From the NCBI GenBank assembly GCA_032622095.1, contig CP136061.1, positions 58,545,301-58,609,300 on the forward strand: a DNA stretch of 64,000 bases, written 5' to 3'. Shown here one piece after another: positions 6,641 through 63,851 of this stretch. Every line of letters starts with the position of its first letter. The first letter of the stretch is position 1. A program made the position numbers and the translations under genes. The notes below the pieces were generated by a model. The model made no database searches, was not told the DNA's origin, and saw nothing but the letters and a program-made list of their open reading frames with translations. The DNA comes from Siphonodentalium dalli. Its lineage: Eukaryota > Mollusca > Scaphopoda > Gadilida > Siphonodentaliidae.

Positions 6641-6902
6641 TGTGTTTATATACATGTATGTTTAAATAGATGAAATTGAAGGATTATGAACATGATTGAC
6701 TGAAATTGTATACTTTTGCATCATAGTTTGAAGAAGTCATGAGATCAGACTGCAGTAGAATATGGACTAGTTTATTATAAATCTGTAAATAAAAATAAAT
6801 ATTATATAAATCTGTTAACCATTATCAAATATTCACTTTTGTTTGATTAAAGTAAAGGAAACACTCTGCTCATTGCTAAAATTGTGTTGATTTCATTTAC
6901 AG

Positions 6903-22504: not shown

Positions 22505-22975
22505 TATATACACATTCAATCTACACACAAATTTGTGTATATATAGATGTTATACAGATTCATATATCTTGCTGTTGTCATGGTGATTTGTATGCGTGTC
22601 TGTGTTATATGTTGAGAGGTCTTAGTTAAGTTTTGTGGTTAGATGTGTATGTACATGTACATAAAATTTGTTTCAGAAAAAATTCACTGATACTACATAA
22701 ATTGGAAACTGTTTTCTACGTTGATGGAAACGTTTTTTTTGTATTTTTATGTTTCAATTTGAATAAATCGTATTTATTGCACTCCGTTCTCTTTGAATAA
22801 CTACATCTGTAAGTGGTGAATTTATGTGAATTCTAACAATGTTAGTGCCATGGGCATTGTGATTAGCCTAAATTGGACTGAACCACACAGAGTTAATGTT
22901 TGCAGCATGTTAACAAACAAGACTTATTTATTGTGGCAGGAAAATATCCAGTAGTCAGACAGCTACAATAATGCC

Positions 22976-23178
22976 CTAAATAATCGACTCCTTAACCACA
23001 GCAGATTTATGGGTAATTTTTCAGCATTTTGTCGGAAATATGGCTTGTTGCCATTCATCGGAAAACTCTCAGTGAGAGCTTTCCGATGAATGGCAACAAG
23101 CCATATTTCTGACTAAATCCTGAAAAATTGCCCATAATTCTGCTGTGGTTAAGGAGTCGATTACTTCGGTCATTACTG
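22976..23178. mobile_element. Family C MITE, near full-length
   Basis: About 203 bp and almost a perfect palindrome, with arms including CCTTAACCACAGCAGA and ATGGCTTGTTGCCATTCATC, and TA on both sides (22974-22975, 23179-23180). The outermost bases have drifted (CAATAATGCCC). Confidence 0.75.
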
Positions 23179-23394
23179 TATGATATATGTCCAAATGAAT
23201 TCTGTGCAACATTAAACATTAATATCACTAGTTGTCAATCTCGCAGGTTTCAGGAAAGAGAACTCTGCAAAACCTACTTAGACTACACCTTTCAGCTGGC
23301 ACAATTATATTACTCTCAAGTACAATTATAAGAATGGTCTATATCTTCATATAACAAGTTTTATATAGTTTCCTGGGTATAACATAAATATTCA

Positions 23395-34151: not shown

Positions 34152-34880
34152 GTTAAAGACATGTTATGGACTATGTTCAGTGCGTGAAACTGATAAGTTA
34201 CAGTAATGCCCAAAGTAATTGACCACTTAACCACAGCAGAATTATGGGTAATTTTTCAGGATTTAGTCGGAAATATGGCTTGTTGCCATTCATCGGAAAG
34301 CTCTCGTCAGGAGCTATCCGATGAATGGCAACAAGCCATATTTCCGACTAAATCCTGAAAATTACACATAATTCTGCTGTGGTTAAGTGGTCAATTACTT
34401 TGGGCATTACTGTAGTACTCAGGCTCATGCCAACCTGGGGAGCTTTCCGATGAATGGCAACAAGCCATATTTCCGACTAAATCCTGAAAAATTACCCATA
34501 ATTCTGCTGTGGTTAAGTGGTCAATTACTTTGGGCATTACTGTAGTACTCAGGCTCATGCCAACCTGGGGAATGTAGCATTCTACTAACATCGCCGAAAA
34601 TTTCAAAGAAATCGACCATACCGCTCCATAGAAAACATCATCTGAACCACACTCACTTATAAATATTTACATCTTGATTCTGGACGCAACTATCGGCGAT
34701 AAACAAACACAAATAATTTCTCCATCGATAGTCATATTGCATTTAATTAATATATCAGAATGACTGTGTGTGTTGTCTAATTTGGATTAATATTCATAAA
34801 AATAACTACTTAGAGCAAGATTATTCTCCATTTCAATTTGATCAACTTACCGGAGTGTTTCACATATCACTTTAAATCTT
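34152..34880. repeat. Family K repeat with a family C insertion
   Basis: This copy aligns along most of its length with 38430-38818, for example AAAGACATGTTATGGACT, GATTCTGGACGCAAC and TATATCAGAATGAC. It differs by the family C element inserted at a TA (34201-34412) and by a tandem duplication of about 130 bp of the element's right half plus flank (about 34310-34440 and 34440-34570). Confidence 0.75.
34201..34412. mobile_element. Family C MITE, full-length, with empty-site evidence
   Basis: 212-bp palindrome CAGTAATGCCC..GGGCATTACTG flanked by TA (34199-34200, 34413-34414). The paralogous site at about 38482 reads gataagttagtactcagg without the element. This shows both the precise ends and the TA duplication. 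Confidence 0.85.
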
Positions 34881-36444: not shown

Positions 36445-36863
36445 ATGACCATGAAGAGAAAGCGAAATGATCTGTCCTTGAATGACAAGTATGAAGTTGT
36501 GAAACTCTTGGACCAGAATCTTACACAGGTCCAAATTGCAAAGAAGGCAGGTTGTTCCCAATCGCAAGTTTCACACATTCGAACAAAGAAAGATGGTATC
36601 AAACAAAAGTTTGAAGATAGCAACATCAATCTACAACGCAAGCGACAACGAACCGGCAAAGCATCAGATGTAGAGCAAGCCCTCACTACGTGGGTCGAAA
36701 GTGCCAAAAATGAAGATACACCTCTCAATGTAGACACATTGAAGCAAAAGTCTGAGGACTTAGCCAAGCAGCTTGACAAACCTGACTTTAAGGCAACCAA
36801 TGGCTGGCTGAGTAGATGGAAGAGTAGAAACAACATCAAACTCAAGAGGGACATCAGGTGCAG
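36445..36863 (+). CDS. Gene B, first CENP-B/Tc5-type DNA-binding exon
   Basis: The proposed start is ATG at 36445, the first Met after an in-frame upstream stop, and the sequence opens MTMKRKRNDLSLNDKYEVVK. The exon ends at 36863 before donor AG|gtatgt, phase 2. Residues about 8-60 match the CENP-B N-terminal helix-turn-helix, with IAKKAGCSQSQVSHI as the helix-turn-helix core. About 70-138 match the Tc5/CENP-B-type second DNA-binding helix bundle, with the hallmark GWLSRWKSRNNI. These two domains form the DNA-binding half of pogo/Tigger transposases and of CENP-B and Jerky. The catalytic DDE domain that follows in transposases is absent here. It has two paralogous exons downstream. It may be the 5' exon of a gene spliced to the THAP exon at 50794, or the first of several alternative HTH exons. 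Confidence 0.75.
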
Positions 36864-36972
36864 GTATGTACTATTATGTTAGGGAAATAGCACATAAGTG
36901 GTCTGTATAGACTCTTGTGTTTAACACCGAGGATTGATACATAATAATACAAAAATGTAATTATTTTATTGG

Positions 36973-38150
36973 ATTTTTAGCTCAACTTACTTTGTAAGTT
37001 TGAGCTATTGCCATGGTTTGGCATCCGTCGTCCGTGTGTGCGTGTATCTGTGTGTCCGTCAACAATTTCCTTTGGCGCGGGCTACAGGTCGTACCTTTGG
37101 TCTGATCTTTATGAGATTTGTCATGAATGTTGACATTGACATGTAGATGGGAACGAGTCATTTTGGTGTCATTCGGCCAAAAAACATGGCCGCTGGCGGC
37201 CATCTTGGATTTCAAAATTCAATCCATTGGCGTGGACTACAGGTCGTACTGTTCGTCTGATCATCATGAAATTTGTCATGGATGTTAATATTGACATGTA
37301 GATGGGAACGAATAATTTTGGGGTCGTTCGGCCAAAAAACATGGCTGCCAGCAGCCATCTTGTATTTTACTATTTGCATGACTAAATCCTTTGGCGCGGG
37401 CTACAGGTTGTAGCTTTGGTCGGAACTTCATGAAATTTGTCATGGATGTTAACAATGACATGTAGATGGGAACGAGTCATTTTTGTGTCGTTGGGCCGAA
37501 AAACATGGCTGCCAGCAGCCATCTTGGATTTTACTCTTTGCATGACTAAATCCTTTGGCGCGGGCTACAGGTTGTACCTTTGGTCCGATGTTTATGAAAT
37601 TTGTCATGAATGTTGCCATTGACATGTAGATGGGAACGAGTCATTTTGGGGTCATTCGACAAAAAAACATGGCTGCTGGCGGCCATCTTGGATTTCAAAA
37701 TTCAATCTATTGGCGCGGGCTACAGGTCGTACTGTTCGTCTGATCATCATGAACTATGTCATAGATGTTAATATTGACATGTAGATGGGAACGAGTCATT
37801 TTTGGGTCATTTGGCTGAAAAACATGGCTGCCAGCAGCCATCTTGGATTTTACTCTTTGCATGACTATATCCTTTGGTGCGGGCTACAGGTCGTAGCTTT
37901 GGTCAGATCTTCATGAAATTTGTCATGGATGTTAACAATGACACGTAGATGGGAACGAGTCCTTTTGGGGTCAATTGGCCAAAAAAACATGGCCGCCAGC
38001 AGCCATCTTGGATTTTACTCTTTGCATGACTAAATCCTTTGGCACAGGTTAGACATTTCAATTAGCACCTTTCCTATTCCTCCATTTACTGTCAACCATT
38101 AAATTATTCCCCTACCTAAGTTGAGATACAGTGTCATTGGCACTTTCATT
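36973..38150 (+). repeat. Family D repeat with about 200-bp tandem units
   Basis: The left end TTTTTAGCTCAACTTAC and right end AAGTTGAGATACAGTGTCA are inverted. In between, about five to six tandem units carry GGCGCGGGCTACAGGTCGTA, TTTGTCATGGATGTTAAC, GACATGTAGATGGGAACGAG, AACATGGCCGCCAGC and GCCATCTTGGATTTTAC. Several long reading frames run through it but change register between units, so coding is unlikely. Intronic to gene B. Confidence 0.75.
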
Positions 38151-38429
38151 GTGAATTGCGATTCAAAACATTATTCCTATATAAAATTAAACATATCTGG
38201 CAATTGTACTGGACAATGGGGATCTGCAGTGACTTTGACAGTGAATTGCATAGCACATTGGCCAATCATAAGACTTTTAGTGTTGGTGAAGCTGGTTCAG
38301 CTCCCAATAAATGCAGATTTGTGATCAATGATAGGCATTAAGGCTACCTCAGAGAAGTTTTTTAGTTGCTTTCCGGGTGTTCAGACCTGGTGAGCTCAAC
38401 TTGATGAAGTTGACTGTTTGCATTATTAT

Positions 38430-38818
38430 TTCCTTAAAGACATGTTATGGACTTGTTCGGGGGTGTGAAACTGATAAGTTAGTACTCAGGCGCTATGCCA
38501 ATTGTGGGCATGTAGCTCTCTACAAACATCGCCGAAAATCACAAAGAAATCAACCATTCCTCTCCGTAGAAAACATTGTCTGAACTACGCTTAAATGTAA
38601 ATATTTTTATCTCGATTCTGGACGCAACAATCGGCTATAAATTAATGCAAATGATTTTGCCATCGAGAGTCATTGCATTTGATTAATATATCAGAATGAC
38701 GGTATGTGTGCTGTAAATTTGGTTTAATATTTATAAAAGTAATTACTGTGAGCAAGATTATACTCCATTTCTATTTGATCACACAACCAGAGTGTTTCAC
38801 ATCACTTTAGTTTGGATC
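38430..38818. repeat. Family K repeat, copy without the MITE
   Basis: Aligns with 34152-34880. It reads straight through the TA where the other copy has the family C insertion. Confidence 0.7.
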
Positions 38819-39294
38819 TTCGGGGGTGACCTCAAGATAGGAGCTATACATTTTTTTCAAGTTTTATTGAAAAACATAGCCACCAGCAGCCATTTGGGAT
38901 TTTACTCTTTGCATGACTAAATCCTTCGGCATACCCTACATGCCACATCATCATCCAATCGTCTGACACCAAACTTCACAGGGTTCTTTGGTGTGGCCTC
39001 TAGATGGGAGCTATCAAATTTTCTTTTTCTGCCTTTTACTAGTTTAGATCATGTTCTTTTTATGGCAGTTATTCATTTACACTCAAGTTGTGTACATGTT
39101 GAGAATGCTCTTGCCAAAATTTCCGTTCTAAAACTATGATTAAAGTTTTTTGTTGTTGACATTTTTATTGTTATATAATATGCTTGATGTGGCCTTCAGA
39201 TAGCATAGATTCCTTCATGTGGTGTACTAGCTTAACAATTAAGTAGTTTTCTGTGTATGTCAATCTAAACTTTGCACCTCCTGACATAGCTGAG

Positions 39295-39727
39295 GCATGG
39301 AGACCCCTTTAATATGGAGTGTAAATTCATTTGTATGGGGCCATATAGGCCATACCAGTCTGATAATTATGAAATTTGTCAGGGATGTTGACATTCGAGA
39401 GAAAAAACATGGCTGCCAGTGGCCATCTTTGATTTCAATATTCAATCTATTAGCAAAGGCTACAGACCGTACCTTCTGTCTGAACATCATGATTGATTTA
39501 TTGGGGTTTAATCTCCATTTCAGCAACTAAGGCCATCATGAAATTATTCATGGAGGTTATAATTGACATGGAGATTGTAACGATATGTTTTGGGTTTAGT
39601 CAGCCAAAAAACATGGCTGCTGTCAGCTATCTTGTTTTTCAACTTTTCCTAAGCACTCCATTGTCTGTAACACATGAAATTATCCCCTCTCCAAGTTGAG
39701 CTATAGTGTCATTGACACTTTCATTGA
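39295..39727 (+). repeat. Family D repeat ending next to an HTH exon
   Basis: Shares ACATGGCTGCCAGTGGCCAT and the terminus CTCCAAGTTGAGCTATAGTG, then CACTTTCATT, with the other family D copies. It ends only 26 bp before the exon at 39754. A further fragment lies at 38855-39060. Confidence 0.6.
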
Positions 39728-39753
39728 TAATATAATAATCATATTCATTCCAG

Positions 39754-40158
39754 CTCAACAAAGAGAACACGCAATGACCTGTCCTTAAATGACAAACATG
39801 AGGTAGTGAAACTGTTGTCACAGACGTTGACACAGGTCGAAGTTGCGAAGAAATTAGGTTGTTCCCAATCCCAGGTTTCGCGTATTCAAAAAAAGAAAGA
39901 TGAAATAAAACAAAAGTTTGAAACCAGCAGCACAAACCCAAAATGCAAACGACAACGAACTGGTAAAGCTTCTGATGTGGAGAAAGCCCTTTCTATATGG
40001 TTTGACGACAATGCCAGACATGGAGACACCCCCATCGATGGAGACACCTTGATGCGGAAGTCCGAGGACATTGCTAAACAGCTTAACAAACCTGACTTCA
40101 AGGCAACATCTGGCTGGCTCTCCAGATGGAAGAAGAGAAATAACATCAAACTGAAGGG
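39754..40158 (+). CDS. Gene B, second CENP-B/Tc5-type DNA-binding exon (405-nt cassette)
   Basis: Acceptor attcattccag ends at 39753 and donor AAGGG|gtatgt starts at 40159. The length of 405 nt starts with one and ends with two bases of split codons, so the exon is symmetric and can be skipped or included without shifting the frame. It encodes the N-terminal HTH (VEVAKKLGCSQSQVSRI) and the second DNA-binding helices (KATSGWLSRWKKRNNI). By eye it is roughly 90% identical in nucleotides to the exon at 45689, and less like 36445. Beyond the donor the frame continues into sequence with no similarity to the family, which supports the splice site. It lacks its own start codon at the homologous position, so it is an internal exon. 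Confidence 0.75.
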
Positions 40159-40771
40159 GTATGTAGTATTTTTTAAGTTAAATGGTACTTTAAAGAAGTT
40201 TTTAGAGGAACATGTTCCATTGTGCACTGGCGGGTTGCGTTCAAATTGGAACACAGACAATAACACTAAGGTGTTAGGTGCTCACATTGGAGAGATTCCA
40301 TTTTCAACACAGCGTAAGACACAACACATACCTAATATGGTATTAAGTGAGTGTTATGATGTTTCTTGTTATCAATTGATAAAAGTGCTCTGCAAAGCAA
40401 AGGAAATTTTACTTACATTTATGCAGTGTTCACGCTGGGTCGAAAAATCTTTTGGTCAATTTTTTGGCTAATTCTGATTTTTTTTTTGCCAAATTAAAAA
40501 ATAATTGGCAGAATTAAAGCCTCATTTTCTGGTCTCACAATTAATGAATATTTTTTTTTTTTTTTTAACAACTAACACCATTGTTATTTGACAAATATAC
40601 CACTACCACCATCTACCATTTAGCCTTATGACAGAAAAAGGATTCATGTTAATCCTCATTACTGTTTTACGAGTGCCTTTTGTTACCCATTAAGCTGTAT
40701 GACCTAATCAATTAGATGACCATATTTAAATTTGATTCTATGTCACTCCCATTACAAAATCGGTTTGGTTT

Positions 40772-42600
40772 TTTAGCTCACCTGAGACGAAGTCTCTGGT
40801 GGAGCTTAGTCATCACTCCTCGTCCGTCATCCATCCATCGTCCGTCAACAATTCTTTGAAAATCTTCTCCTCTGGAACCATAAGACCGAATGGGTTAATA
40901 TTTGGTGTGGATATTCCCTAGGTGACTAGGATATTCCCTAGGTTAACTCCATGATCAATTATATATATATTGTTTAACATTTTTTGAAAATTGAAAAACT
41001 AATGCCATTACATTTCTGAAGGTTGTGCCCCCCTGGCCCTTCACTCAAGTTCACTACTTGTCCTGGTCCCAAAAATAATATTTACTCAAATTCTTGACAG
41101 AGAATCATTAATAAGAAGCATTTACTTTGGCTCTAAATGTATGCGGGGTATGCCTACACATGTCAAGTGAAATCTGACATTTTTATAAACATTCCCTGGA
41201 GATCTGCTAGAGGTAATTAATTCCCAATTACAACAACAGTCTATCATATGTATTGTTCAAATCTTTCGTCAGGAAATTTAACACTCCCACATCCACCACC
41301 TCACTAGAACATATTTGGCAAACTTGAAAAGTGTCCTTTGAAAGAACCACCAGCTCTATTTAGCTCATATTTAATATTGAGGCTCCTTTTGGTGATTGGG
41401 ATTCAGATTTGTTCAATCAGGGTCACAGGGTCAAGTAGGTGCAAGGCCAGCTACCTTACCCTTTATCTCCATAGTAATTCATGATATGTCTTCTATGCAA
41501 GAACCAAATGGCCTATTTTGCTTATATTTGGTATGAAATTACCTTGGGTGACAGATTTGTGAAAATGGGATCACAAAGTAAAATAAGGGCAGAGCCAGAG
41601 ACATAACTGTTTCACTCCATAGTAATTCTTAAAATATGTTTGCAAGAATTAGTTGGCTTATTTATCATGGAATGTACTTGTTTGACTGCAATTCAGATCT
41701 TTAAACATGGGGTCACCTGGTCAAATAGGGGCCAAGTGAAGGACAGTTTCTCTCTTAACCCTTTACCCAACAGAAAGGCCCTGTGCCAATGCATTCTCTT
41801 ATATATGCGAGTCGACCATAGGTCGCCTCGCATATATAAGAGAATGTATTGGCTTAACACATTAAAAATTATAAAATTGTTGAAGAATGTAAGAAAAAAT
41901 GGTAAAAAGTGTTAAAAAAAAGTTTTTTTTTAGGCCAATGCATTCTCTTATATATGCGAGGCGACCTATGGTCGACTCGCATATATAAGAGAATGCATTG
42001 GCACAGGGCATAACTGTAACTATCACAATGTGGTCAAGGAGCCGGTTCCAATGATATCCATATTTGTATGGTTCTATTGAGACATACCGAAGATATTTTA
42101 GGCTGTTGAAGCTTTATTTGGCCGGTTTTGGCCGGTTTGTTGGGTAAAGGGTTAATATGCTTCCTTCACAAGGACCATCAGGTCTATTTTACTGATATTT
42201 AGTATGAAGGGTTCTTTGGTGTCTGGGATTCAAATTTATTCAGATGGGGTCACCAGGTTAAATAGGGTGGGACCAGGGACATAACTATATGTCTCTATAG
42301 TAATTCTTAAAATGTCTTCTCAAGAGAGGTTGGACTATTTAGCTTACATATAGTATGGAGGATCCTTTAGTGACTGAGATTCAGATTTGTTAAAATGAGG
42401 TCAACCTGTCAATAAATGGCGGGGCTATGGGGAATTAACACTTTTGTGTCTAATAAAATCATTGAAATACCAAATTCATTAAAACATCTACCTTGGAACC
42501 ACCTGACTGATTAATCTGACATACCATGTATGGTTTTTGGGTCCATGGATAATTGGGCTTCAAACATGTCTAAATGGTTTTATAAAAAGGCGCTTGTGAG
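40772..42600 (+). repeat. Long repeat with AGCTCACCTGAG terminus, interrupted by a family B variant
   Basis: Starts TTTTTTAGCTCACCTGAGAC with a short hairpin (GACGAAGTC), followed by degenerate units of the type CCATAGTAATTCTTAAAATA, AGGGGACATAACT and GGGTCACCTGGTCAAATAGG. A family B variant is inserted at 41756-42153. Repeats with this head are common in marine invertebrate genomes; no coding function is visible. Confidence 0.6.
41756..42153. mobile_element. Family B variant MITE with TTAACCCTTTACCCAACA ends
   Basis: Begins TTAACCCTTTACCCAACAGA and ends TTGTTGGGTAAAGGGTTAA. Two ATGCATTCTCTTATATATGC hairpins flank an A/T-rich spacer. A close copy is at 59187-59649. The flanking sequence does not show an obvious TSD beyond the TTAA-containing ends. 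Confidence 0.75.
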
Positions 42601-43488
42601 ATTGGAAATTTCCAACAATTGAGAAAGTTTGAGGTGTCGGTTGTGAAATTCCAACCTACGACGTGGGAGTCTGGAGCCCGATCGGGAGGGGACTTGTTGA
42701 GCTGGAGGAGGGGGGTGATCAGTAGTGTACAGTTGGTAATTTAAAGGTGGATTTTCACCAATCTACATACGTGATGTCTCTCTAGCCACATATCCTGTTT
42801 AGATCTACTTCTTTTAAAGTGATTATGAAAAGTTCTGACTATTGTGGTCTCCAGAGTCCCAGTCTTATCAGTCTTTGTAGTCTGGTGAGCGACCCCACAG
42901 TCATTGACTGTCTTTTTTAATTAGATTTCCGATTTTGATTTTTTTTTTTAATTTGGCCAAATTAAATTTATTTTGACCATTTTCGACAAAAAAATGCCCA
43001 TTGGCCAATTTGGTTTGATATAACAGATAGATTGATCTGCAATATTACATTTATTCCAATATCAAACTTATCAGCTGCAATTGGAAGCTCTGTGTTATAG
43101 CGCAACATGTCCAATGCAGATTGTGTCATCGCAATAGACCATCATAAAAAAACATCGAAATGGACCAAACCTCAACATAGTCTTCTGAAGTCTATTTTAA
43201 TAGTGGTCTTTTCACACTGGTGTGTTTTCCACTGAGAAATCCTAAACCATTTATCTGGAATCCGATGTAATGAGTTTTTAATTTCCCCCAATAAAATAGT
43301 AGTGCCTGCCTGTTGTAATTAATTAATAAATTAACCAGAATTAAAAAAAATTTAAGAAACTCGACATGTAAAATGCCCTAGATGGAAGAGGAGAAAATAT
43401 AAATAATAAAGTCAGTTGTTGGCATACTATTGGACGATTTCCTATATGGCTAAAGCTAATGAATTCAAAGCATGTACATTAATTTTAA

Positions 43489-43943
43489 AGGTACTCAATC
43501 CGATCAGACGGTCCCCATATCATCAAGATACAACAACAGCAACATTTCTTCAAAATACGCTTTAGTTATCAGAATTGATTAATTGCAACAAAATAATGCT
43601 AACCACTGTCAAATATGGTATAAAATTTCACAATTCGTGTTATTTATCAACATTTTGTTCAACGAAATGTGGCCATATTGTCCAAAAAATAATTTGGCCA
43701 TATTAGCACTTGATTTTAGAGTTTTCCATCTTCATCCGCAATATTTTTGTCCGAGACAGTCCGTTTGACGACGTTTTTCTGGGCCACATATAATTTCACA
43801 TCTTGAGAAATAGCGAACTTCAAAAATTTATATCTGAACACTCTGTGCTTTGATGGATGGGTTCCTCGACTCGAATAAAATATTTTTTACCCCCGAAGCC
43901 AAAGAAATAGTAATTTATGAGCATTAATTCGGACAATGCATCT
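43489..43943. mobile_element. Family F MITE with TTAA on both sides
   Basis: AGGTACTCAATCC at the left and ATGCATCT at the right, with TTAA at 43485-43488 and 43944-43947. Inverted relative to 24538. Confidence 0.65.
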
Positions 43944-44542
43944 TTAAATCATTCTTGCAAAATTGCGAATTAATATATGTAGACATAATAATATTAACAA
44001 CTCAATTTTTCTCAATTTCCTAATTTTCCCCATGATATTGTCTGGCACCCTCATTTACTAGACACAGCAATGCAATTAAAACATTGGACAGGCCTGGCTC
44101 ATAAGCTTGTGATGATGGGTCCAATAAACACATACCAGTAGTAAAATAATACATGGATTAAATATATTAATTTTATATATTCTGAGCTCATTAAAGAGTG
44201 TTTTTATCTTCAAATTCTTATTGTCCCAAACACAATTACATTGATGTCAACGGTAAATGATCTGAAACATTTTTTTCTGACATTTTTCATAAACAAGTTT
44301 TTGGGCAGGTTTGTAACCAACTAATTAAATCAATATCGCGATAATATCATTTTAGCCGCTGTTACATATCACAATGAATCATTCAGTGGTATGTTCTTTC
44401 CTCTTTCAACCTTGAGCTTCGGAGATTCGTTCTATCTCCTTTTGTTCCTGTTCTTTGTTATACATGTACTACTTTCTCAATTCATCTGAATTCTGAATAA
44501 AATGAATGAATGTTTTGGGAAGTGTTTCACTAACACTGACAT

Positions 44543-44764
44543 TAACCCTTTCATGACAGGAACTGTGAGTGCATTCTCTTATATATGCTAGTCTACCATA
44601 GGGAGCCTCACATATATAAGAAAATGCACTGGCTTACAAGGTCAAGGTAATTATTGTTAGGCCAATTTATTCTCTTATATATGAGAGACTCGCATATATA
44701 AGAGAATGCATTGGCACATGGTTTTTCGCAAAATTTCAGGAAGCTCCAATCATGGAAGGGTTAA
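44543..44764. mobile_element. Family B MITE
   Basis: ttaaccctttcatgacagg to catggaagggttaa, with two ATTCTCTTATATATG hairpins. Intronic to gene B. Confidence 0.7.
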
Positions 44765-45121
44765 GAATTTAGAAATGCATGTAAAGCAACATTTCCGAGG
44801 CTTGTTTATAGTCTATAATAACCTATCAACCTGACCTGCTCTTAACCTCTTGGCTGCTATACGTCAGTACTGAGTTCGTACCTAAAATGTCCACAGGTGG
44901 CTGTCATTCATAAGGGGGACTAAGAAATTAGTGCAACTGAAAAAGTGTGTTTCAACATTTCAATCACTGTATGGTGTTCCAGGATTGATAATGATATTAG
45001 CCTTTGCATGAAGTCATTTGTATGGTTTTCGCGACATTCCCATTAACTTTTTTTGCTGCAAAATGAGCAGAACGTCAACATCCCCACACACGACGTCATA
45101 TCATTCAGCAGTGAAGAGGTT

Positions 45122-45374
45122 AATTAACCCTTTCGTGATGGTGCAACATTAAAGATCCTGTGCCAGTGCATTCTCTTATATATGTGAGTCTCCTGTAGGG
45201 AGCCTCGATTATATAAGAGAATGCACTGGCTTACAAGGTCAAGGTAAATACTGTTGGGCCAATGTATTCTTTTATATATGCGAGGCTCCCTGTGGGAGAC
45301 TTGCATATATAAGAGAATGCATTGGCACAGGGTTGTCGCAAAATGTCAGGAATCTCCAGTCATGGAAGGGTTAA
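45122..45374. mobile_element. Family B MITE
   Basis: ttaaccctttcgtgatgg to gtcatggaagggttaa, with the same two-hairpin layout as 44543, 84 bp upstream of a family C insertion. Confidence 0.7.
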
Positions 45375-45457
45375 GTTAACTATAGTAAAATTTGTTCAGA
45401 CATTACTTTGGCAAACACTGTATAAAATTCCAGACTACACGTTTTGATAATATTAAA

Positions 45458-45670
45458 CAGTAATTCCCAAAGTAATTGACCACTTAACCACAGCAGAATT
45501 ATGGGTAATTTTTCAGGATTTAGTCAGAAATATGGCTTGTTGCCATTCATCGGAAAGCTCTCGGCGAGAGCTTTCCGATGAATGGCAACAAGCCATATTT
45601 CCGACTAAATCCTGAAAAATTACCCATAATTCTGCTGTGGTTAAGTGGTCAATTACTTTGGGCATTACTG
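45458..45670. mobile_element. Family C MITE abutting the splice acceptor of an HTH exon
   Basis: 213-bp palindrome CAGTAATTCCCAAAG..CTTTGGGCATTACTG; TA is kept on the right (45671-45672). Only 18 bp separate it from the exon that begins at 45689, so its right arm occupies the region where the branch point and polypyrimidine tract of that acceptor should lie. Confidence 0.8.
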
Positions 45671-45688
45671 TAATTAAATTCATTCCAG

Positions 45689-46093
45689 CTCAATAAAGAA
45701 AACACGAAATGACCTGTCCTTAAATGACAAGCACAAGGTAGTGAAACTCTTGGCACAGAAGTTTACACAGGTCGAAATTGCAAAGAAATTAGGTTGCTCC
45801 CAATCCCAGGTTTCGCATATTCAAACAAAGAAAGATGAAATATTAAAAAAGTTTGAAACCAGCAGCACAAACCGAAAATGCAAGCGACAACGAACTCGTA
45901 AAGCTTCTGATGTGGAGAAAGCCCTTACTACATGGTTTAACGACAATGCCAGACATGGAGACACCCCCATCGATGGAGACACCTTGATGCGGAAGTCCGA
46001 GGACATCGCTAAACAGCTTAACAAACCTGACTTCAAGGCAACATTTGGCTGGCTCTCCAGATGGAAGAAGAGAAACAACATCAAACTGAAGGG
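45689..46093 (+). CDS. Gene B, third CENP-B/Tc5-type DNA-binding exon (405-nt cassette)
   Basis: Same architecture as 39754-40158: acceptor attcattccag, 405 nt, donor AAGGG|gtatgt, phase 2 at the end. It encodes VEIAKKLGCSQSQVSHI in the first HTH and ends GWLSRWKKRNNIKLK. Differences from the second copy fall partly in likely DNA-contact regions (SHIQTKKDE against SRIQKKKDE) and include Arg for Gly before KASDVEKAL and Phe for Ser before GWLSRW. The frame is intact, with no stop or indel relative to the paralogue, which suggests it is retained by selection or is very recent. The duplicated block also includes about 11 bp before and 15 bp after the exon. The exon splices in phase to the THAP exon at 50794. 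Confidence 0.75.
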
Positions 46094-46148
46094 GTATGTA
46101 GTATTTTGTATGATAAGTTTTAGGAGGAATCTGTTGGGGGTTAATTGA

Positions 46149-47234
46149 ATTTTTTATAAAAAATTCAATCGTTGGGCTGTCATGATTAATCTCAGTCGAT
46201 TAAAGCCACATGGTCAATTATTTAGAGCATCACTGTAATAACATTCGCTTTTTAAATTTTCCCAATATCTTGCGAATATAAGCATAACTTCTGTTTTCTA
46301 ATAACTTTACATCTTTGGGTATGACATTACTGTGATTGCTGATGGTCGTCAACTAAATTAGATCCTCTCACAGTGACAATTACAAAAGAATTTCAGCTGT
46401 CCTTGTTTCAGTTTCACCACAAAGGTCAATAAAATACAGTGACATAGTTTTTAGCAGAGTGCTTATTAAGAAATGAATGCAGTTTGAGCATGTTTTATTG
46501 AGCAGAATGGCACTGTATTCTCGGTTCACACCAGAGCTGTATCACGGATTGTCCATGAGACTCCCGGATAGCCACGGCAATTCCGCAAATACATATAACC
46601 CCCAATTTCTCCCGGATTCAGCAAAACCCAGCATTCAAAATCCCCAAAAATGATGTAATTATATTTTTTTAATATTCGTTTCCCCATTCATACAGGGATT
46701 TTCATATTTCCGGTACCATAAATACCCACACATCATCGATGTATATTATATAGATCGATGCACACATTAACATTCACAGAATGTACCGTCGGTAACTTTT
46801 GATGTTCCTTCAGATTGAAGACTGATAGTGGCCAGTGAACCGTGACTGATATTAATTGATTTTCACACTCTGGTGAAGCCACACGTATAAAGGGTGTTAT
46901 AGTACTTATACAATACGTTTAATCACAAGTGTGCAGCTGTATTGTAATTGCCCCATTGATGAACCAGTTTAAGTAACGGAATCTTTAAGATTTAAGTTCA
47001 CTGATTAGCGATGATCTTGTTTTCACAAGGATGCATAGGGGCCTATATTAATCCAATTAATGGAGTCTGTCATACATCTCAAAATGTCTGACGCACCTGC
47101 CCAAAAAAAAACGTGCCTGTTATGAGTCTAAGTTTAAATCTTAGACTTTTGCTGGAAGTATGGAACCATCCACTGCAGTGAAAACAGAATACAATAGAAT
47201 GATGAAAACTCTATATTTTTAACAGGAAGTTAGC
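46149..47234. other. Intron sequence without recognised features
   Basis: AT-rich; no exon, RNA or named repeat identified. Confidence 0.35.
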
Positions 47235-47239
47235 AGTTG

Positions 47240-49863
47240 TCCTTGACCACGCCCGATAACCCTATAGGCTGGTGGCTGTGGGTAGGCATATTGCTGTAGT
47301 GATATTGTGTGGCGGTTTCACACGTGTGCTCAGAATTTGAGGAAAATCATAAATTCTGGAATCCACCCGGCGAGAACGCTTATGGCATTAGATAGGACCA
47401 TGACTGGTGTATTCATACACCATTTGTGATAAAGCCGTGTGCCTTTAGATATATTTTTTATTACTTAAATTGTCGAATTTTACAACCGGTTTTTGTCGTT
47501 TATCAAAGAAACTACCTAATATAAATGGTAGAAATCTCGATATGTAGGCTTCATGTACACATGTCACTAGATGCACATTCCATTGATACAATGAAACCAA
47601 AATCCACAATAAAAGACATATTTTTCTTGGAAAAATATCGATTTTCCTGAGTGTCATATCACAAATTTATGACAGGCATATTGCCTCCGCAGATAGGCTC
47701 ATGGCAAAGCACAAACTTGTTATGATAGGCAAGTGGCATTGTTGATAGGCACGTGGTAAATATTGACCAAGCTCCTATTTAGCACTTTAAAGCCAACAAT
47801 ATGCAACTTCTGGCATATATTATTTTATAAATACACTCTGGAATGATTATTCATTCATATAAAATAGACAGAACCACACATATGTGTGCATGACGTGAAA
47901 AATAACGCACGAGTTTGTTACGCGGAATGTTACAACGTTACAACGATGGGGCGCGAGTTGTAACTTGCAGCATAATTTAATTTTCTCACCACGCACACAT
48001 AATGTGTGGTTGTGTTTTATTACACACCCACTAGAACTATTCAACATCGAGATTTTGCGTTTATTGATTCGTTTCTGTTGTAATTTATAGCCATTTTTAT
48101 CAAACTGATAGGCGACTTTATTAATAAAGTTTGTAGTTCTTGTTCAAAAGATAAAGTTGACGTAATTTGTGACTCGTGACGTCGACGTTTTCCGTATTGT
48201 ATACGTGTTGAATACGTTGGTAAAGATATTGTATGGGCTACACTGCTCAATATAAGAAAATTAACACAATACCGTAGTCCCATTGGGACAGTCACACCTC
48301 TAGTTACATTAGGTTCAGCCACCGTGGGTTGGCTTGGTCGGGAGACTGTTCCAATGAGATCTTGGTACATGGGACAAGTTTTAATACATTTTATCAGATT
48401 TATTGACTAATTTCTGCATTTAGAAGCAGAATCTTAGATTTAAATGTCAGAAAATCTGAAATCATCCCGCGATGACAACTCGATGTTTTTTTTCTGAGGT
48501 GATCATTTCTCCGATATGATATCGTACTCGGTGAATTTTAGACGCACCCAAAAACCTGCCCCACGGTCTTGACAAAAACATTTACCACTATAAATGCACA
48601 CGAAATCTCACGGCGATTCCTCCTATATATAGCCCATGAGACAACAGCGCCCACTCAATTAAGTTAACGCCCCACACACATTTGTATTATTGCTCGGTGC
48701 TCCTGTTTATGTATATGCGGCATAACTGGGTCATGGTCCAGGTCCACTATATGTATGCTCTAGCTATACAGGTTCTAGCGTACCCTAATTTTCGCACCTG
48801 ATATTTCTCTGAGCCCAATGTCTTTACCTATATTGATACCACATAAAATTATGTATAGCTATTAGCTACATTTAGCATTGGCGGGACATTGAATTATTGT
48901 TAATAGCATCATATACTGTTATTTATTTGTGTGCGGTTTATATTCCATAAACCGGCGTAGACATGAATCGTTCTGGTCGAAGAGAAAAAAACAAATATAT
49001 GAACGCCATTCTTTCGCAGAACGCCAAAAATAAAACCGGCTATAAATGGTAGCTATATTATCTATATGTAGTGGACCATGACCATTCAGCCTGAAAACTT
49101 CACAAAGCTGCATGGCATGGCTCATTTTTTTACATTAAAATATGCTGAATAGTTTGGGCTATACTTTCCCCATTTTCAATTAAAACCCCATTTTGCAAGT
49201 TTGTCACAGTTAAAACGTTTTACATTACAACTGCCAGTATTTAGTTCTTGGAAATAAGTAGTGTATGTCTCCTGACTCATGGACGATGTGAATTTACAAC
49301 ACTGTGAATAATATAGCATCACAAAAGCGTTTTTCTCAGACTAAAACCACTATTGATCATTGTGCTACATGCGTATCTGTGTTTGCCATATGTCTATCCT
49401 CTTGGTGTTTGGCTATTCAATATGCCTACCACAAAATATTGACGGGACAGTATGTCAAATAACTTTTTTTAACTGAAAAATGCATTATTTGAGTTCGCAG
49501 TCATGTTTGTCTTGTCACTGAGATACTATACCACATGTATCCACGAAAATAACTTACAAATCGACATGCTGAGCAAATTTGGGAGTTTGTTTACTTTGAA
49601 AGTTTGAAAAAGTCGACAAAATCCGAGATATTTTGTCTTCAAACAACATATTCTACAATGCCAAATTGTTACCAAGAGGTTCAACTTAGAAATCAGACAT
49701 TACTGCATCTGACGTGATAAATAAATCTGACCTTTTACAGCGTATTTGATCAATTATAATCCAAAACATACCTTGGTTGAGAAACCCGCCACGCAATATC
49801 TCTACAGCAATATGCCTACCCACAGCCACCAGCCTATAGGGTTATCGGGCGTGTTGACCTTTG
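47240..49863. mobile_element. Candidate 2.6-kb element with about 80-bp inverted ends
   Basis: 47240-47319 (ACGCCCGATAACCCTATAGG, CTGGTGGCTGTGGGTAGGCA) is the reverse complement of 49781-49863 with only a few mismatches. The interior has no coding frame and contains a family E tail (48270-48374). The boundaries outside the inverted block show no clear duplication. Confidence 0.5.
48272..48374. repeat. About 100-bp duplicate of 52680-52783
   Basis: Begins CGTAGTCCCATTGGGACAGT and runs through CAGCCACCGTGGGTTGGC to ATCTTGGTACATGGGACAA. It is practically identical to the segment directly after the family E repeat at 52.7 kb, so unique-looking flank was carried along. Confidence 0.7.
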
Positions 49864-50019
49864 CATGCCAGCGATTTCGCATTGTATTATTTTATATAAA
49901 TATGCATGTATCTCACAGCAGCTGTGTAAAACTCAGTTTTCATTACTGTTTTATTTAGGTGTATATTTTTATAAAATAAAACAAATAGAAACTCCTAAAA
50001 CTATGTAATCTTCATCCTA

Positions 50020-50753
50020 AAAATGATAAATAAAAAGATGGAAATCCTTAAAAAATATTTTTGGGAACATGACAATATTTGTCCATTGGATTTGGGGTCA
50101 ATCGGCCATAAAACATGGCATTGGCAGCCATCTTGGATTTTTACTCTCTGCATGACTAAATCCTGTGGCACGGACTACAGGTCATACATGTACCTTTGCT
50201 CGGATCATCATGAAATTTGTCATGGATGTTAACATTGACATATAAATTGGAAGATGTACTTTTGGGGTCATTCGGCCATGAAACATGATTGCCGGCAGCC
50301 ATCTGGACTTTACTCTTTGCTTGACTAAATCCTTTGGTACACCCTACAGACGAAACACTACTTGTCCGATCGGCCACAAGATGGGAGTAATCTAATTTTT
50401 TCGAGTTTTGTTAAAAAACGTGCCACCGCAACCATTTTGGATTTTACTCTTTGCATGACTTAATTCTTTAGCACACACTATAGTCCGCTTCCCTCATCCG
50501 ATCATCACCAAACTTCATATTGATCTTGATATTGATCTACTAGATGGGAGCTATAAAATATTTTTGAATTTCATAGGAAAAAATGGCCACCAATGGCCAT
50601 CTTGGATTTTACTTTATATATATCTCTTCATGTTGATATCTAGTATTACTTAGACATTTCAACTTTCCGCATTCCTAATCACTCCATTGAATGTAACATA
50701 TGAAATTATCCTCTCTCCAAGTTGAGCTACAGTGTCATTGACACTTTCATTTG
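50020..50753 (+). repeat. Family D repeat ending next to the THAP exon
   Basis: Units AAACATGGCATTGGCAGCCA, TGCATGACTAAATCC and terminus CTCCAAGTTGAGCTACAGTG, then CACTTTCATT; it ends about 40 bp before the exon at 50794. Confidence 0.6.
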
Positions 50754-50793
50754 GTAAAAACTTGATTACTATAACAGTAATATGTACTTCCAG

Positions 50794-51247
50794 AGATGAT
50801 GAAACCAGTGAGAAGCAATCCAATGTAACCAGTACGCGTGATGATCAATCAACAAAGAAGATCACGGGTCGCAACCTATGTTGTGTAAATGGCTGCATGA
50901 ATTACCAATTTCTTCCAAGTGGTGAGAAGTCAGGAACCCATTTCTTTTCGATACCAAAGGACATTCTCAAGAGCACAAACAAGTGTAAGAGATGGTGTCA
51001 ACTGATTAAATTACAAGATGGATTAAATTTGGGAGAACAGACTGTTATATGCGAGGAACATTTCAGAGATTCTGACATCATAATTTCATCTTCATCAAGG
51101 AATCGAACTCTGCATCCTTTGGCTGAGCCTGCTAATTGTGACCCAGAGAATAATTCATTTCAGAAAAAGTCGCAAGAGATGAAACTTTCCATGCCAGCTT
51201 CAAGCAACAGTGACAATATTGCAGCAAAACCGTCAACTACTGCAGAG
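50794..51247 (+). CDS. Gene B, THAP zinc-finger exon
   Basis: Acceptor acttccag ends at 50793. The first base completes the split codon left by any of the HTH exons (GG|A or AG|A). The donor GAG|gtttgt follows 51247, phase 0. After a charged leader of about 25 residues comes a THAP domain: C29/C30, C34, the FSIP turn (51-54), W67, then C86-x2-H89-F90 and a C-terminal LHPLAEP box corresponding to the AVPxxF motif. All C2CH zinc ligands are present. THAP domains bind specific DNA and occur in P-element transposase and in host THAP proteins. Coupling to CENP-B-type HTH exons would give a protein with two unrelated DNA-binding modules. There is no in-frame Met before the domain within the exon, so an upstream exon is needed. 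Confidence 0.85.
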
Positions 51248-56115: not shown

Positions 56116-56390
56116 AAGATTGTTGATGAGCAATCAGCTTCAGAAGATGGTGACCACATACAAGACCCCATACAAGACTCCATACAAGACCCCATACAAG
56201 ACCCCATACAAGACCCCATACAAGACCCCATGCAAGACCCCATACAAGACCCCATGCAAGACCCCATACAAGACCCCACGCAAGACCCCATACAAGACCC
56301 CATACAAGACATTCAAACAAGAAAGCGAAAACAGGCACTGGAAGAATATAGCATGATGGATAAACAACTGAATAGTGGCCAGCATGAAAG
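56116..56390 (+). CDS. Gene B, (I/M/T)QD(P/S) repeat exon
   Basis: Acceptor cattcattcacag ends at 56115; phase 0 start fits the phase 0 end of the THAP exon. It encodes KIVDEQSASEDGD, then 13 consecutive tetrapeptides of the type IQDP (IQDS once, MQDP twice, TQDP once, IQDI last), then QTRKRKQALEEYSMMDK, and ends AG|gtaaga, phase 2. The 12-bp unit ccccatacaaga is repeated nearly perfectly. All three forward frames are open across the array. I chose this one because both splice phases fit and because the flanking residues are charged like the rest of the protein. The basic TRKRKQ after the array could be a nuclear localisation signal. Confidence 0.65.
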
Positions 56391-59037: not shown

Positions 59038-59132
59038 AGAGGACAACTTTAATGAGTTGTGCAGTCAGCAACATTCTGAAGTTCCTACAGAAGAAATATA
59101 CCCAACATCAGATCCAATTAGAAAACCGAGCG
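59038..59132 (+). CDS. Gene B, small coding exon (tentative)
   Basis: Acceptor ttttgtttcag ends at 59037. One base completes the codon left by the repeat exon (AG|A, Arg), then EDNFNELCSQQHSEVPTEEI and a few more residues. The donor is gtacgt at 59133. The exon ends with one base of a codon, which does not match the phase 0 start of the last exon at 61695. Read one base later, the exon is also open and ends in phase 0, but then it does not fit the exon before it. An unseen exon between 59.1 and 61.7 kb, or a different acceptor, would solve this. Confidence 0.5.
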
Positions 59133-59186: not shown

Positions 59187-59649
59187 TTAACCCTTTACCC
59201 AACAGAACGGCCCTGTGCCAATGCATTCTCTTATATATGCGAGTCGACCATAGGTCGCCTCGCATATATAAGAGAATGCATTGGCTTAACACATATTAAA
59301 AATGATAAAATTGTCAAAGAATGTAGAAAAATATTATAAAAATTGTTAAAAATGTAAGAAAAAATTATAAAATTGTTAAAGAATGTAAGAAAAAATGGTC
59401 AAAAGTGTTAAAAAATAATTGTTTTTAGGCCAATGCATTCTCTTATATATGCGAGGCGACCTATTGTCGACTCGCATATATAAGAAAATGCATTGGCACA
59501 GGGCATAACTGTAACCATCACAATGTGGTCAATGAACCGGTTCCAATGATATCCTTATTTGTATGGTGTTATTGAGACAGACCGAAGATATTTTAGGCTG
59601 TTGAAGCTTTATTTGGGCGTTTTTGGCCGTTTTGTTGGGTAAAGGGTTA
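59187..59649. mobile_element. Family B variant MITE
   Basis: TTAACCCTTTACCCAACAGA to TGTTGGGTAAAGGGTTAA, very close to 41756-42153, including GTGGTCAA(T/G)GA(A/G)CCGGTTCC and the A-rich spacer with AAAAATTATAAAATTG repeats. It lies 55 bp after the donor of the small exon. Confidence 0.75.
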
Positions 59650-61694: not shown

Positions 61695-63851
61695 AAGCCA
61701 TTATCTGAAGCAACTGTTGAGATAGAGATAAAGAAAGAGCTGTCGGAATTCTTCACCAATGACAGTCTGTTCACTGGTAAATCTGCTAAATCAATGTGTG
61801 AACCAGCAATGTCTTCGGCAGCATCCTCGGCCACAACTCAAAACCAATTGCCTCATGATGAAATGTGTTCTCACAAAATAAAATCTTCAGAGCTGAATGT
61901 CTCTGTGAAAAAAGAAACGTTGAGTAGTGATACAAGCAGTTCATTGTTACGTAGCTCTGACACTTCATCAAGGATCATTCACACAGTATATCCATATCCA
62001 GTATATCAAAGAATCGCATGTGAAAAAATCATAACGCCACCACAGAACATTGATAGTCCATCACTGAACATTCCCACCATATATGATAGTAACATACATG
62101 TTTGTGAAAAAATCGCCACTCCATCTTCGAACTCTGACACTCCACCAAGGAATACACCCGCAGTATATCAAAGTAACACACATGGAATAATCACGACTGC
62201 CAAAGATTTTAGCATTTCCACAGTGTCTAGTGCTTCTGAGAAATCACATGATAATGCTAGAATTTCAACATCGATTGAATTTAAAAATAGTGAATGTGGA
62301 CCATTAAATGTTTCTCAGAGTGAAATGAACAACATTCGTGATCATGGAGATTCTGTCAAGTTTATGTGTGATCACAAGAATCAGATAACACCTACAAACA
62401 AACAGTGTAAACCTACTAGCATTTTGAGGACTACATTGAATGAATCCTTACTAATGAAGAAATCGCGTAACATGTTGAACACAGCATTGATGAAATCCGT
62501 ATTGAAGAGGAACAAAAATGAAAGTAGAATTGAATCTTCGGTAGCAGGACCAGATCCCCCAGTGAATGTTAAATTCTGTGGTATCAGACCATGTCCTCCA
62601 TTAAAATGTCATGTTTCCAGTACGGGACTCACCCCTGTTCCACTCAGTAGCATTCCCAGTGTTCATCAGTTACCAGTTTTCTTGACCACAATGTCAGAAG
62701 AAAGGATACTATCAGCTGTACCACAAACGTTCACCTCGTATGTAAATTATAGGAAGAAATTTCCTACTATTAGCAAGGATGGCACAAAGAGTCTCCCTAC
62801 TACAGGCAGAGCTGTTGCTACTAGGACCATGACAGAATCAAAGCTTGGTAACCAAAATTCCAGAGTTAATAATCAATTAACAACTGGTAACCATGACAAA
62901 ATAGTTGTATGTAGCAACCATTCAATGTCTGGTAACCATGATATCATAGTTAGTAACCATTTAACTTCTTGTGACCAAGATGCCAGAGTTTCTAACCATT
63001 CAATGGCTGGCAACCAAGATACCAGAGTTAATAATTATTCAACGACTGGTGACCAAGATTCCAGAGTTACACATAGTAATCATACGTCAGGTAACCAAGA
63101 TACCAGAGTTAGTAATCACTCAACATCTGGTAACCGAGATACCAGAATTATATGTAGTAACCATTCAACGTCTGGTGACCAAGATACCAAAGTTAGTAAC
63201 CCAGGGCAGATTATTCCTCACTATGCGTTGAAAACACCAGAAGCAACCAATCAAGTGCCAAATATTTCTTGTCGCAGTGACACTGAACATAACATTTCTA
63301 AACCTAAGAGTTATAAAGAAAGGAACCTGGAAACTTCAAAAACAGACAGTTTTCTGGATTCTGAAAAATCACCAGCTGACGATAAAGTACAGCAAATATA
63401 CACTCGTAATCCCCTGTCATCTATATGTGATGGCAGAGACTCTAATTTTGAGCCAGATGAGGTCACTGTTGGTGACTGTCTTAATTACCTGGACTTGTTA
63501 GCAGGTGATCTCGACTTGGAAGATGAATGTGGCATGAATAATGAGTATGGCATGGAAAGTGAGCGTGTGGATTCATCTGGAAATGGTTCTACTACGAGAA
63601 CTAGATCAAACGAGAGAGTGGAATTGGGGCCGAATGCTCAGCACAAAAGAAAAGAAATATCTGTAGGGAAGATTTGTCGAAATGTCAGAGAAATCGTGAA
63701 TAAGATAAAATCTATCAAGACAGGAGATCACACTTCACATATTATTCACAAGGAATCGTTTCCTGTTCGCTCTAAGAATGGAGAGCGGAAATTTGTGGAC
63801 ATTAAGCTGAGTCTAAATCTTGACATAGAAATAACTGACAGTGTTTTGTAA
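61695..63851 (+). CDS. Gene B, 2.2-kb terminal exon
   Basis: Acceptor catatttttcag ends at 61694. The frame is open from AAG at 61695 (KPLSEATVEIEIKKELSEFF) to the TAA at 63849-63851, 718 codons. It is Ser/Thr/Asn-rich and probably disordered. IKKE and VKKE near the start match the SUMO-acceptor consensus. Two tandem copies of a roughly 28-residue unit beginning CEKI lie at nt 62018-62185. At about 62840-63200, eight to nine degenerate copies of a unit like SNHSTSGNQDTRV repeat. The last 60 residues (VGKICRNVREIVNKIKSI..) are more hydrophobic-periodic and may form a small folded or coiled segment. No catalytic or known domain is seen. The first Met is at 61794, so a separate short gene starting there cannot be excluded. 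Confidence 0.8.
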   Translation, partial: KPLSEATVEIEIKKELSEFFTNDSLFTGKSAKSMCEPAMSSAASSATTQNQLPHDEMCSHKIKSSELNVSVKKETLSSDTSSSLLRSSDTSSRIIHTVYPYPVYQRIACEKIITPPQNIDSPSLNIPTIYDSNIHVCEKIATPSSNSDTPPRNTPAVYQSNTHGIITTAKDFSISTVSSASEKSHDNARISTSIEFKNSECGPLNVSQSEMNNIRDHGDSVKFMCDHKNQITPTNKQCKPTSILRTTLNESLLMKKSRNMLNTALMKSVLKRNKNESRIESSVAGPDPPVNVKFCGIRPCPPLKCHVSSTGLTPVPLSSIPSVHQLPVFLTTMSEERILSAVPQTFTSYVNYRKKFPTISKDGTKSLPTTGRAVATRTMTESKLGNQNSRVNNQLTTGNHDKIVVCSNHSMSGNHDIIVSNHLTSCDQDARVSNHSMAGNQDTRVNNYSTTGDQDSRVTHSNHTSGNQDTRVSNHSTSGNRDTRIICSNHSTSGDQDTKVSNPGQIIPHYALKTPEATNQVPNISCRSDTEHNISKPKSYKERNLETSKTDSFLDSEKSPADDKVQQIYTRNPLSSICDGRDSNFEPDEVTVGDCLNYLDLLAGDLDLEDECGMNNEYGMESERVDSSGNGSTTRTRSNERVELGPNAQHKRKEISVGKICRNVREIVNKIKSIKTGDHTSHIIHKESFPVRSKNGERKFVDIKLSLNLDIEITDSVL
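62840..63205 (+). repeat. Degenerate coding repeats of the GNQDTRV type
   Basis: Units with GGTAACCAAGATACCAGAGT and TAACCATTCAACGTCTGGT recur in the frame of the last exon of gene B, with unit length alternating between about 39 and 51 bp. They are more diverged than the repeats in gene A. Confidence 0.75.

Follow-up and report, generated by a model that had tools for sequence, protein, structure and literature searches.

A putative host-transposase fusion gene with a tripled Tigger-type helix-turn-helix exon ahead of a THAP exon in the scaphopod Siphonodentalium dalli

The window analysed here is a stretch of 64,000 nucleotides (nt) from the scaphopod mollusc Siphonodentalium dalli (assembly GCA_032622095.1, contig CP136061.1, C1:58545301-58609300), and positions are counted from its first letter. 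On its forward strand lie three paralogous open exons, denoted as E1, E2 and E3, each of which encodes a CENP-B_N and an HTH_Tnp_Tc5 helix-turn-helix (HTH) domain, and 4.7 kilobases (kb) past E3 lies a single exon encoding a THAP zinc finger (Table 1). E1, E2 and E3 look like real exons of one origin, and their joining in RNA is predicted. When we recomputed the exon coordinates, lengths, phases, gtatgt donors and phase-2 entry into the THAP exon given by the original prediction, all values were the same, and E2 and E3 are symmetric cassettes, as it had held. It had also claimed that the four exons belong to one gene; their order, strand and phases permit a single gene, and the splicing itself is a prediction from the DNA. 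Points that it did not raise are the probable single capture, the conversion of a start codon into an acceptor, the absent DDE part and the candidate exons as far as 63851.

Table 1. Features in and around the candidate fusion gene, in window positions
Feature	Position	Strand	Remarks
E1, first coding HTH exon	36445..36863	+	419 nt; CENP-B_N and HTH_Tnp_Tc5; transposase-type ATG kept; leaves in phase 2
E2, internal HTH cassette	39754..40158	+	405 nt; phase 2 in, phase 2 out; acceptor AG/C at the putative former start codon
E3, internal HTH cassette	45689..46093	+	405 nt; phase 2 in, phase 2 out; 93% nucleotide identity with E2
T, THAP exon	50794..51247	+	454 nt; phase 2 in, phase 0 out
X4, candidate next exon	56116..56390	+	phase 0 in, phase 2 out; donor 7.3; fits the THAP phase; predicted
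X5, candidate exon	59038..59132	+	phase 2 in, phase 1 out; fits X4; predicted
Candidate last exon	61695..63851	+	718 amino acids (aa) with stop
Foldback repeat element	45457..45673		ends 15 nt 5' of E3
Dispersed repeat end	39637..39725		28 nt 5' of E2

The domain content of the four exons was compared with Pfam, where HTH_Tnp_Tc5 and CENP-B_N were matched over their gathering scores by E1 (1.6e-15 and 3.3e-8), E2 (6.5e-13 and 3.8e-9) and E3 (2.7e-12 and 1e-7), and the THAP exon matched PF05485 at 4.3e-11 with 43.9 bits (cut-off 23.9). These matches are far beyond chance, and all three domains pass the Pfam cut-offs in the hidden Markov model search that the original prediction had proposed as a check. 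By eye, the THAP zinc ligands are present in the C2CH order as C-VNG-C, 51 residues and C-EE-H. The ligand spacing of THAP fingers is C-x2-4-C-x35-50-C-x2-H, which the middle gap of this exon exceeds by one residue. The sequence of E2 aligns to the DNA-bound CENP-B domain 1hlv (8.1e-9, residues 6-129 of 134). The fold of E2, modelled from three sequences, was of moderate quality, with a predicted local distance difference test (pLDDT) of 77.5 and a predicted template modelling score (pTM) of 0.44; using this model, Foldseek presented 1hlv as the top match (1.7e-4, 28% identity) and as the sole match below 0.001. The superposition of the model on 1hlv reached a template modelling score (TM-score) of only 0.39 with a root-mean-square deviation of 12.4, probably as the separate halves alone fit. 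For the THAP exon alone, no match was found in the PDB at 0.001, and a THAP fold predicted from the single sequence (pLDDT 36.7) was discarded as useless.

The motif gtatgt directly follows E1, E2 and E3 alike, and when E1-T, E1-E2-T, E1-E3-T and E1-E2-E3-T were translated, a stop appeared in none of the four conceptual joins. Because the HTH exons are paralogues, their shared phase is one inherited fact and not three, and a match between the HTH donor phase and the THAP acceptor phase is expected by chance about 1 in 3 times. Splice sites were scored with a simple custom matrix, with percentiles taken from all GT and all AG in the window. The donor of E1 is strong at 5.9 (99th percentile of window GT, 3.7), and those of E2 and E3 are fair at 2.8 (95th percentile, 1.5). 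The acceptors scored 0.4 for E2, -1.5 for E3 and -2.5 for THAP, where the median of window AG is -5.5 and the 90th percentile 0.4, and the donor of the THAP exon, gtttgt, scored 0.75. GC content at third positions was 0.48-0.50 for E1-E3, 0.37 for THAP, 0.45 for X4, 0.32 for X5 and the last frame, and 0.37 for a putative upstream gene, which suits a transposon origin of E1-E3, yet would fit unrelated genes too.

Relatives of the HTH exons were sought by searching the genome (2.23 gigabases in 9 contigs) with E2, and 150 of 711 candidates were scored. Among these, E2 itself was followed by E3 (87%) and E1 (73%), and copies elsewhere in the genome were at most 70% identical across the full domain, with a few short fragments at 71-76%. 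One locus, L007, holds an open frame of 535 aa with CENP-B_N, HTH_Tnp_Tc5 and DDE_1, whose domain content marks it as a Tigger/pogo transposase, and is 63-69% identical to E1-E3 along the matched stretch. As five of its relatives (L004-L006, L009 and L012) share 95-98% identity with it in their longest match, this Tigger family was probably active recently. The pogo/Tigger derivation that had been proposed for the HTH exons is borne out by these transposons of the same genome, both in their identity and in the tree described below. When the 535-aa transposase was compared with the window by tblastn at an E-value of 1, only the HTH stretches of E1, E2 and E3 were found, and no DDE part.

As a control, 40 other HTH loci were hand-picked from the 150, each with a flank of about 1.5 kb; L007 and L011 among them gave the two transposase queries, and the set leaves out most short matches to HTH residues 5-69 with a common TAA. 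Transposase sequence past residue 220 was kept in 32 of the 40 and absent from L016, L031, L032, L033, L035, L038, L039 and L042. Six of these eight match one or other of the two transposases at 85-97% identity, which suggests that they are probably young deletion products, and the remaining two are diverged (L042 58%, L035 28%). Near position 1500 of L035, a diverged CENP-B-type HTH (28-31%) lies in an open frame of 160 aa, with no transposase match within the surrounding 3.4 kb, and this locus is possibly another domesticated gene. Many matches to HTH residues 5-69, found on many contigs at about 58% identity, share one common TAA stop and probably belong to a large Tigger-related family of non-autonomous elements.

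In a tree of 23 HTH fragments and copies, E1-E3 cluster together with support of 87/94 and in 84% of 200 bootstrap trees, which is under the strong-support level of 95/80, and E2 pairs with E3 at 99/96. The likeness extends into the introns, where 18 of 30 letters at positions 7-36 are identical between E1 and E2 and 19 of 30 between E2 and E3 (p=0.0001 for either pair). At positions 25-60, 17 of 36 letters are identical for E1-E2 (p=0.0065), 11 for E1-E3 (p=0.36) and 12 for E2-E3 (p=0.23). Since the E1/E2 likeness continues past the donor, the duplicated unit probably carried the splice donor already. In the codon alignment, E1 and two transposon families have the start codon ATG where E2 and E3 have AGC, of which AG is the acceptor dinucleotide and C the first base of the exon. 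The simplest order suggested by this alignment would be an ATG first exon that was copied, with the copy made into an internal exon. A long segmental duplication with shared introns was rejected, as the homology of E2 and E3 stops 18 nt before and 23 nt after the exons. The repeats 5' of both exons, at E3 the foldback element of Table 1, probably explain the loss of shared intron upstream but not downstream. Differences between E2 and E3 number 24 in the 255 nt of the first part and 3 in the 147 nt of the Tc5 part (p=0.003, with the split point picked post hoc), and their longest identical run gave p=0.17; local gene conversion between the two is possible.

Selection was estimated by pairwise codon likelihood as omega, the ratio of the nonsynonymous (dN) to the synonymous (dS) rate, which was 0.19 for E1-E2 (p=1.8e-9 against 1) and 0.25 for E1-E3 (p=6e-7). 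The Nei-Gojobori method (NG86) gave 0.18, 0.21 and, for E2-E3, 0.51. These ratios suggest that the HTH domain was under purifying selection through most of its history, partly perhaps as a transposon. In simulations of neutrality, the probability of open frames surviving in both E2 and E3 was 0.084, 0.026 and 0.007 with 0.05, 0.1 and 0.15 indels per substitution, respectively, and the open frames weakly support the use of both exons.

Within the open frame of the THAP exon, the domain is preceded by no in-frame ATG, so the exon needs an upstream coding exon, and E1 offers a start codon together with a strong phase-2 donor. We scanned for alternative starts, defined as ATG exons shorter than 300 nt whose phase-2 donor scores 4 or more, and found none from E3 to the THAP exon and none in the 3.4 kb 5' of E1. 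One candidate lies between E1 and E2 (38328-38389, donor 4.5) and three lie between E2 and E3 (donor 5.2), all three overlapping foldback repeats. Because of these four candidates, E1 is not the sole possible start. On the 3' side, X4 contains a QDPI coding minisatellite (56160-56310) with a sub-threshold match to PF13388. The 718-aa last frame gave no Pfam match at an E-value of 1, and at about 62860-63200 it contains a coding minisatellite of NHSTSGNQDTRVSN-like repeats. As the phases of X5 and the last frame clash, either an exon is missing or the last frame belongs to another gene; no mini-exon bridging the two was found with an acceptor of at least 0.5 and a donor of at least 2, thresholds at which X5's own acceptor (-0.9) would fail too. 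A complete gene model through 63851 can be proposed from these candidate exons.

On balance, we lean modestly towards a host-transposase fusion gene in which a tripled Tigger cassette would stand ahead of THAP. The order of events, like the splicing to THAP, the tail, the DNA targets and the function, is one that we infer. First, a Tigger/pogo transposase would have contributed its 5' portion, including the start codon and the bipartite DNA-binding domain of CENP-B type, to the region upstream of the THAP exon. Splicing from a donor behind the second HTH would have linked this portion to the THAP exon in phase 2, and the DDE catalytic part would have been lost. The captured exon, with its donor and some intron, would have been duplicated within the gene, and in the duplicate the ATG would have turned into the 3' splice site AG/C, by which a first exon would become a symmetric internal cassette. 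A further duplication of this cassette would have given E2 and E3. The gene would most likely encode a DNA-binding protein of the nucleus in which one, two or three HTH modules of CENP-B type precede a THAP zinc finger, perhaps followed by a long tail. Several HTH modules in series would make the DNA site longer or paired, and because the HTH domain descends from a Tigger transposase, Tigger ends are the first-guess targets. The protein may perhaps bind paired sites, some of them in related Tigger copies; E1-E3 are about 30% diverged in protein from the Tigger copies found. It is a rather unlikely extension that the one gene would give proteins with 1, 2 or 3 HTH modules by inclusion of E2 and E3, the number or kind of modules setting the spaced sites bound, from a cassette that would have arisen when a start codon was made an acceptor.

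Several observations weigh against this fusion gene. The acceptors of E2, E3 and THAP are ordinary to weak, and the THAP donor is weak as well. The donors of the four alternative start exons score higher than those of E2 and E3, and the candidate tail exons fail to close in phase. A scan of the interval from E3 to THAP yielded no further exon with phase 2 on both sides, but it carries little weight, as its thresholds would have excluded E2 and E3 too. Shared intron sequence is weaker between E1 and E3 (13 of 30 at positions 7-36, p=0.035), and past position 24 E1-E2 alone is above chance. The omega of E2-E3 was 0.68 (p=0.4 against 1), and constraint on both exons since their split is undetectable in omega. 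By the Yang-Nielsen method (YN00), omega was 0.34 for E1-E2, 0.46 for E1-E3 and 0.90 for E2-E3, above the likelihood values, and the low omega of E1 against E2 and E3 could partly stem from life as a transposon. When the neutral simulation was run without indels, both frames stayed open with a probability of 0.25.

It is possible, though on the unlikely side, that one HTH exon only, E1 or another, is joined to THAP and that E2, E3 or both are out of use or in decay. An E2-E3 omega indistinguishable from 1, a dN of 0.059 against a dS of 0.115 for this pair and the low acceptor score of E3 all agree with such decay, whereas both exons are open, are exactly 405 nt long and keep both splice sites, and their joint neutral survival is 0.25 to 0.007 by the indel rate assumed. 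Marginally less probable again is that the HTH exons start another gene or are transposon relics, with the THAP exon in a separate gene that has another start. The phase match of HTH and THAP is a 1-in-3 event, the fusion is predicted from DNA, the THAP acceptor scores low, and the stretch from E1 to E3 holds four ATG exons with phase-2 donors of 4.5-5.2, of which three overlap foldback repeats. Relics are opposed by the constraint of E1 against E2 and E3, the conserved donors, the common intron start and the failure to find any DDE part in the window, but a separate gene is untouched by these points. Three independent Tigger insertions, each exonised separately, are very unlikely: although Tigger copies are numerous in the genome, one capture with later duplication of the exon is the better fit because E1-E3 group in the tree and have the same donor and neighbouring intron letters. 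The fusion and its alternatives overlap, a single HTH exon joined to THAP being itself a form of fusion, and the probabilities we attach to them exceed one in sum.

Other features of the window are mostly repeats. The foldback element at 45457-45673 has further copies at 34198-34544 and 22965-23186, and the arms of the first two are 98% and 100% identical. Another foldback family, built around the core gcattctcttatatatgcgag, is found at 41781-42008, 44561-44721, 45158-45332 and 59212-59503, with nested inverted pairs and further copies in the window. A dispersed repeat with internal units of 155-164 nt spans 37068-38043, and its end recurs near 39725 and near 50751, the related copy at the latter site ending at 50751, 42 nt 5' of the THAP exon. 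Upstream, an open frame of 1669 aa (6891-11900, forward strand) has a weak C2H2 finger match under the Pfam cut-off and internal SLSERLDTDNDRDSDVPFTQV repeats; as a stop codon ends it, it is probably a separate upstream gene. On the reverse strand, 58189-58300 matches U2 spliceosomal RNA with 55.2 bits (gathering 46), covering model positions 1-192 within 112 nt, and is probably a shortened copy.

New transcription factors are known to arise by transposase capture, and host-transposase fusion genes formed in this way were reportedly described by Cosby et al. in 2021 (cited in PMC12062965). Like these, the fusion gene favoured here would join a transposase domain to a host domain, in this case by predicted splicing. 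Unlike these, its captured exon was apparently tripled into phase-2 cassettes, and its partner is itself a THAP finger. Pipsqueak carries tandem psq motifs, so that one protein contains pogo-type HTH modules in series, as is predicted here; it is not known to have a THAP finger. Pipsqueak is described as being of pogo origin, and THAP and CENP-B-type genes have each been repeatedly domesticated in animals, including molluscs (PMC10027918). The HTH::F-box A2 genes of Caenorhabditis, in which the N-terminal HTH of a Tc1/mariner transposase is fused before a host gene, are a close parallel in the mechanism of HTH capture, with another transposon group and another partner; the word 'tandem' is absent from the main text of that paper (PMC12062965). 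CENPB, POGK and POGZ are pogo-derived chimeric genes that have the same class of DNA-binding domain, but in these, entire transposase genes are fused with added domains, while no DDE part was found here (PMC7386202). Sea cucumber THAP/HTH_Tnp_4/DDE_Tnp_4 genes, with THAP N-terminal in all peptides but one, also pair THAP with an HTH, which there is HTH_Tnp_4 followed by a DDE domain and here is CENP-B_N/Tc5 (preprint PMC13228809). Among the literature matches listed, in a search outside which most subscription papers and all supplements lay, there was no report of a CENP-B/Tc5-type HTH joined to THAP and none of a tripled captured exon. As far as these sources describe them, known fusion cases add one transposase or domain per host gene. 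Here the domain was apparently copied into several exon cassettes once it had been captured, and a start codon was apparently put to use as a splice acceptor. If true, the locus would be a readable record of the conversion of a transposon's first exon into an internal DNA-binding module, possibly an alternative one, next to a second transposon-type binder.

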